Shown here: positions 36,076 to 36,114 of the stretch, piece after piece
Layout of the letters: each line of letters starts with the position of its first letter
Position numbering within the stretch: position 1 is the stretch's first letter
Source of the DNA: Thermococcus profundus
GTDB lineage: Archaea; Methanobacteriota_B; Thermococci; Thermococcales; Thermococcaceae
Assembly (NCBI RefSeq): GCF_002214585.1
Contig: NZ_CP014862.1
Span: forward strand, 682,001-746,000
DNA length: 64,000 bases
Direction: 5' to 3'
Made by a program: the position numbers and the translations under genes
The notes under the pieces: model-generated
What the model was told of the DNA's origin: nothing
The model's input: only the letters and a program-made list of their open reading frames with translations
Databases searched by the model: none

Positions 36076-36114
36076 GTTCAAGATTTTTGAACCTTTCGTT
36101 CAAGATTTTTGAAC
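36076..36114. promoter_or_regulatory. Tandem GTTCA-N7-TGAAC operator (locus A)
   Basis: Two identical 17-bp palindromes, GTTCAAGATTTTTGAAC, at 36076-36092 and 36098-36114, are offset by exactly 22 bp (two helical turns). They sit just upstream of the HTH-nucleotidyltransferase gene, and the distal copy contains the stop codon of the SAM hydrolase gene. The HTH domain of that gene product is the likely ligand. The same design recurs at 58531-58569. Confidence 0.7.

Follow-up and report, generated by a model that had tools for sequence, protein, structure and literature searches.

We analysed a 64,000-nt window of the Thermococcus profundus genome (contig NZ_CP014862.1, positions 682,001 to 746,000) that carries, at each of two loci, a tandem pair of GTTCA-N7-TGAAC palindromes offset by 22 bp. 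At locus A, the pair separates the gene for a SAM hydroxide adenosyltransferase (SAM_HAT) from a gene that fuses a winged helix-turn-helix (wHTH) to an MNT nucleotidyltransferase (HTH-MNT), which is followed by a HEPN gene; at locus B, it separates two genes for coiled-coil proteins. The motif is best read, from its sequence context, as a control site before one toxin-antitoxin family found in both archaea and bacteria, with locus B as a probable solo copy of that site.

Tandem palindromes in the window

All four 17-bp copies match the pattern exactly, at the positions given in an initial annotation of this DNA (Table 1); the window holds no others, against 0.06 expected from shuffles. The 39-bp double pattern, with up to three mismatches allowed, occurs exactly twice (0.01 expected), and these are the only phased 22-bp pairs in the 2.04-Mb genome, so that the pair is rare. 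The single palindrome occurs five times genome-wide, the copy outside the window lying at C1:1611770, and the reversed control pattern also occurs five times. Single sites are therefore uninformative; only the pair phased at 22 bp carries a signal. This near-control frequency of single palindromes is what would be expected had they arisen by chance or unrelated convergence, but at least one phased pair (up to three mismatches) is found in 57 of the 94 Thermococcaceae genomes, as against 3 of 94 for a control pattern, and the array is linked to HTH-MNT genes across domains. We regard such an origin as extremely improbable and, for the phased pair, reject it on the linkage result described below.

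The initial annotation also drew attention to the stop codons of SAM_HAT (36100) and of the upstream coiled-coil gene (58555), each of which falls at the third base of the distal copy. The coincidence is real at both loci, yet it is a weak argument and not independent evidence, because TGA is built into the palindrome and any gene entering the array in that frame must stop. In class C species, the upstream gene's stop lies inside the proximal copy instead. Downstream of the pairs, HTH-MNT begins with the ATG at 36062, and the best start at locus B is the ATG at 58527.

Association with HTH-MNT/HEPN modules

We scanned 84,980 species genomes (257 Gb) for the exact 39-bp pattern, which has 20 fixed bases, and sought HTH-MNT genes next to arrays with a profile built from alignment A1. 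The scan returned 77 stretches, compared with ∼0.23 expected (an estimate that assumes uniform composition). An HTH-MNT gene lies directly downstream of two or three phased copies in 29 of these (three copies in 21, two in 8), and HEPN comes next in 26 of the 29. The archaeal members are from the Thermococcaceae (6), Archaeoglobales/Archaeoglobi (5), Methanoregulaceae (5), Methanomassiliicoccales (1), and an unclassified euryarchaeote (1); the bacterial members are from the Omnitrophota (4) and, with one each, the Thermodesulfovibrionia, Desulfobacterales, Elusimicrobia, Desantisbacteria, Fermentibacteria, Aegiribacteria, and Actinomycetota. In the reverse test, a protein search within the Thermococcaceae, all 29 close HTH-MNT genes were preceded by an array, nearly always 13 nt from the ATG. 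Since the linkage holds from the DNA scan and from the protein search, the array most plausibly serves wHTH-MNT/HEPN modules as their operator, and the tie to such a module proposed in the initial annotation is supported.

A recognition-helix stretch, SKG-VS, is common to the A-type and B-type HTH-MNT proteins (those of locus A and locus B modules) in alignment A1. A distant wHTH-MNT group (L322-L325, L349) has TGAAC/GTTCA half-sites in a different arrangement, with TGAACGATCGTTCA-like sites before the start codon at other spacing. In one Methanoregula stretch (L283:3880-4010), an intact three-copy array precedes an HTH-MNT frame that ends after ∼30 residues; because the array is intact before a broken gene, operators do outlive their modules.

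Array matches in the genome scan that lack HTH-MNT have no common family among their neighbours. No HTH-MNT relative was found in plasmids; viral contigs gave six array matches, none with HTH-MNT, and one weak relative. Well over a dozen stretches of a Prevotella sp. RUI320 metagenome-assembled genome (MAG; L225, L226, L234, L239, L243-L245, L251, L252, and others) match the double pattern with GC-rich cores (GTTCAGGGCCGCTGAAC) and no HTH-MNT nearby. One and the same operator pair is present in both Thermodesulfovibrionia and Deltaproteobacteria MAGs (L222, L253), ∼170 bp from a 103-aa open reading frame of no known family and again with no HTH-MNT nearby.

A predicted autoregulatory operator

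We favour the reading, at a probability of roughly 0.78, that the tandem palindrome is an autoregulatory operator of toxin-antitoxin modules with a winged-helix MNT antitoxin, locus A being such a module and locus B a solo operator of the same origin. This draws on sequence, position, phylogenetic spread, linkage, and conservation, from which we infer DNA binding, dimers, repression, and cross-talk. HTH-MNT dimers would bind each 17-bp palindrome; as 22 bp corresponds to two helical turns, the copies would lie on one DNA face, and symmetry and spacing suggest that adjacent dimers repress the module cooperatively, a mode comparable with that of AbiEi at its repeated inverted sites (PMC7319586) and of the Shewanella MNT protein at its promoter (PMC4621449). 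The proximal copy would overlap the promoter just ahead of the HTH-MNT start codon, and for this reason the antitoxin probably represses its own operon. The core of that copy is AT-rich and lies 20-30 nt upstream of the ATG. By position, we infer that this core is TATA-like and that the purine-rich spacer before it resembles a B recognition element (BRE), so that binding should block the promoter. The spacer is GAAAG in locus-A arrays, and GAAAA or AAAAA ahead of the proximal copy in locus-B arrays. The window genome has a single HTH-MNT gene, at locus A, which is the most likely reader of locus B as well and would there lower transcription of the coiled-coil gene; we give such cross-talk about an even chance.

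Table 1. Features of loci A and B, with positions in the window
Feature	Position	Strand	Remarks
Nicotinamide-nucleotide adenylyltransferase, nadM	33858..34433	-	Ancestral SAM_HAT neighbour; named from sequence
PIN/VapC toxin	34430..34885	-	
VapB-like antitoxin	34866..35066	-	Second module in same insertion site; weak Pfam match, position
HEPN, predicted toxin	35111..35542	-	PF05168
HTH-MNT, predicted antitoxin and predicted operator-binding repressor	35523..36062	-	Pfam HTH_5 + NTP_transf_2
Operator copy A2 (proximal), GTTCAAAAATCTTGAAC	36076..36092	-	13 nt before HTH-MNT start
5-bp spacer GAAAG between A1 and A2	36093..36097	-	Possibly BRE-like
Operator copy A1 (distal)	36098..36114	-	Includes SAM_HAT stop codon
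SAM hydroxide adenosyltransferase (SAM_HAT)	36100..36888	-	Ancestral upstream neighbour
Locus-B coiled-coil protein	58132..58527	-	No family match; 'RHH-like' in initial annotation
Operator copy B2, GTTCATGGAGCGTGAAC	58531..58547	-	3 nt before ATG at 58527
GGAG within B2	58538..58541	-	Probable Shine-Dalgarno of coiled-coil gene
Operator copy B1 (distal)	58553..58569	-	Includes upstream coiled-coil gene's stop codon
Upstream coiled-coil protein	58555..58872	-	Ancestrally overlapping next gene
HhH-GPD DNA glycosylase	58869..59714	-	Locus-B upstream gene

Encoded proteins

The HTH-MNT protein is modelled by AlphaFold 2 at a predicted local distance difference test (pLDDT) of 90, its winged helix-turn-helix standing N-terminal to the MNT domain. 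The closest structures in the PDB to the nucleotidyltransferase part are MntA antitoxins. The GSX10DXD motif is intact (GSFARGENRPESDLD), GS and DxD being conserved in alignment A1, and the score against NCBIfam MntA_antitoxin is 47.3 bits, under the curated cut-off of 60. The HEPN protein has RNLRHQTQY in place of the strict RX4HXY motif of Class I.

The coiled-coil gene downstream of the locus-B pair is present in 93 of the 94 Thermococcaceae genomes. Neither locus-B coiled-coil protein could be assigned to a family in Pfam and NCBIfam searches. The initial annotation called the downstream one 'RHH-like', after the ribbon-helix-helix (RHH) domain. We find no Pfam or NCBIfam RHH match, only an N-terminal strand-helix-helix in a low-confidence model, and since that model is poor (pLDDT 56) the label, and with it a role as a DNA-binding RHH regulator, is unproven; moreover, a paralogous pair of the two genes elsewhere in the genome (L351, G000:C1:1376800-1378300) has no such operator.

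States of the two loci in the Thermococcaceae

We retrieved both loci from most of the 94 genomes and mapped their genes and arrays; many of the genomes compared are MAGs, and a feature is scored as absent when nothing matched at the thresholds set. Outside the window's genus, SAM_HAT and nadM stand in tight order and the two coiled-coil genes overlap or abut, and genomes there that lack HTH-MNT have no array at either locus. From this gene order we take SAM_HAT-nadM and overlapping coiled-coil genes, both operator-free, as the ancestral loci.

Locus A is, by the same comparison, an HTH-MNT/HEPN module inserted between SAM_HAT and nadM. It occurs in four forms within the genus. One has neither insert nor array; the window type has array, HTH-MNT, and HEPN, with or without VapBC; a third has an array but no HTH-MNT, with VapBC or nadM coming next; and in the last, the array stands between VapBC and nadM. 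Orphan locus-A arrays are less well kept (∼9 mismatches in 14 genomes) and are more like scars. The SAM_HAT-nadM gap (33858-36888 in the window) is a hot spot for toxin-antitoxin insertion, holding HTH-MNT/HEPN and VapBC singly or together, with the operator on either side of VapBC depending on the species.

Locus B has two main states: the window type, with two copies straight upstream of the coiled-coil gene, and a longer type (18 genomes), with three copies, a second HTH-MNT, HEPN, and then the coiled-coil gene. The window's locus B is thus seen as an operator that has no module, since in other species the second HTH-MNT/HEPN fills exactly the gap between operator and coiled-coil gene. Three genomes (G024, G041, G068) have modules at both loci, each immediately behind an array. 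Between G023, G047, G070, and G061, the B-type modules hardly differ although the species have diverged, which argues that modules enter locus B horizontally. The 22-bp spacing is conserved at orthologous loci, and the evidence supports a shared origin of the two sites, as originally suggested, and an identical function. The accompanying idea of a mobile regulatory cassette came close, in that the operator is part of mobile HTH-MNT/HEPN modules and stands alone where these are absent.

Conservation of the bare operator at locus B

In our tree, 20 genomes carry the locus-B pair but lack HTH-MNT, and several of these are 99% complete in one or two contigs. On the terminal branches leading to them, we count 1 change over 20 palindrome sites, against 26 over 19 spacer sites and, within the coiled-coil gene, 80 over 32 third codon positions; the tree was built from SAM_HAT and the glycosylase, genes that flank the loci, and the parsimony counts are approximate. 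Because the palindromes are nearly unchanged in these genomes, HTH-MNT is not the sole maintainer of the locus-B operator. This counts against the autoregulatory-operator reading, as do solo pairs in genera g5 and g6 (L217-L221; G086, G090, G091, G092, G093), which stand not before a conserved gene but at the 3' end of an amidohydrolase gene, 16 nt past its stop codon, among unrelated, partly convergent neighbours. Around these amidohydrolase pairs, the alignment between genomes stops at the operator edge, and the G093 39-mer, reverse complemented, is identical to the first two copies ahead of HTH-MNT in G005.

The operator-bearing genomes without HTH-MNT rule out that protein as the only reader everywhere. 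The initial proposal of one regulator for both sites is not supported for every genome, as many carriers of the site lack HTH-MNT altogether; in the window genome, the locus-A HTH-MNT could read both. In HTH-MNT-free genomes, another reader or an RNA-level role at locus B is needed. A different protein, either the locus-B coiled-coil protein itself or some wHTH regulator, might read the bare operator, leaving the gene autoregulated or controlled independently of toxin-antitoxin modules. The frozen palindromes speak for this, as do a sensitive profile search that found no full-length HTH-MNT in those genomes and the finding that the HTH-MNT-free genomes checked contain no more than one other phased pair. 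Yet the coiled-coil protein belongs to no recognised DNA-binding family and is poorly modelled, the site is absent from its paralogous pair and from its orthologs in other genera, and we found no wHTH gene whose occurrence follows that of the site; we consider another protein reader less likely than not. Stand-alone wHTH proteins were rejected as candidates, their matches being generic and occurring also in genomes without the site.

The locus-B repeat may instead act as RNA: its four half-sites could pair into alternative or nested hairpins, making the GGAG ribosome site within the second copy accessible or masking it. The stretch in the window folds well, at -17.3 kcal/mol (z = -3.95), and a frozen sequence would be expected if every half-site pairs with two partners. 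However, such folding is expected of any tandem palindrome, the 19 distinct locus-B arrays show no compensatory change (their invariant pairs being uninformative), and the array stands at the promoter before HTH-MNT, which points to a DNA-level origin. We therefore think an RNA role improbable.

Bare operators could also be scars of modules lost so recently that they are intact for want of time, not through selection. Fast turnover by horizontal transfer, as suggested by the near-identical B-type modules, would favour this, as would the Methanoregula relic and a clade without modules (G026, G029, G038, G040) in which the locus-B operator decays, with six terminal changes. But recent loss would then have to be assumed for each of 20 lineages, while third codon positions on those terminal branches average 2.5 changes per site; and the junction with the coiled-coil gene hardly differs among them, which independent deletions would not yield. 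Recent loss is thus unlikely, if less so than an RNA role.

The GGAG in the second copy is retained in orphan arrays and lost in several arrays with an intervening HTH-MNT-HEPN; this pattern suggests that the bare pair stood at the coiled-coil gene before the present modules entered, or was co-opted. We tentatively propose, at somewhat less than even odds, that a conserved Thermococcus gene captured a toxin-antitoxin operator, and that species lacking the antitoxin read it through another factor or an RNA mechanism. The same site would serve as a recurrent landing place for modules, so that control of the host gene could pass back and forth between a mobile antitoxin and a host factor.

Under the operator reading, a DNA signature finds one toxin-antitoxin family in archaea and bacteria from raw sequence and supplies the probable DNA-binding part of these MNT/HEPN modules. 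The regulatory site of a mobile module would also remain selected for at a host gene in genomes that lack the module, and toxin-antitoxin rewiring of host genes becomes testable in genetically tractable Thermococcus.

Comparison with known systems

The module resembles the type VII HepT/MntA (HEPN/MNT) systems, in which the MNT gene likewise adjoins and precedes HEPN, in its GSX10DXD motif and in an MNT fold that matches MntA structures. The Shewanella MNT protein SO_3165 binds its own promoter, which bears two palindromes, but these are dissimilar and SO_3165 lacks the winged helix-turn-helix of the window antitoxin (PMC4621449). The window HEPN also differs, being of PF05168, which is Class II in PMC7641770, without a strict RX4HXY; that study concerns another, Class I, HEPN/MNT pair in Thermococcus cleftensis. 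AbiE type IV systems (AbiEi wHTH antitoxin; Rv2827c) share a winged-helix antitoxin with a nucleotidyltransferase-fold partner, and repeated inverted sites bound at their own promoter (PMC7319586). However, the AbiE nucleotidyltransferase is the toxin, with the wHTH as a separate antitoxin, and its sites are 23-bp repeats at other spacing; in the window, NTP_transf_2 is instead fused to the HTH and the partner is HEPN. In the open-access literature searched, no phased 22-bp cross-domain operator turned up. The MNT-HEPN mobile modules of Makarova et al. 2009 are similar in their recent insertions and deletions between conserved genes (PMC2701414), whereas here the HTH is fused to MNT and a probable operator can be identified. 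We propose a wHTH-MNT/HEPN class with a tandem operator, two of whose features, an N-terminal wHTH fusion and two or three copies at 22 bp directly upstream, are found here.
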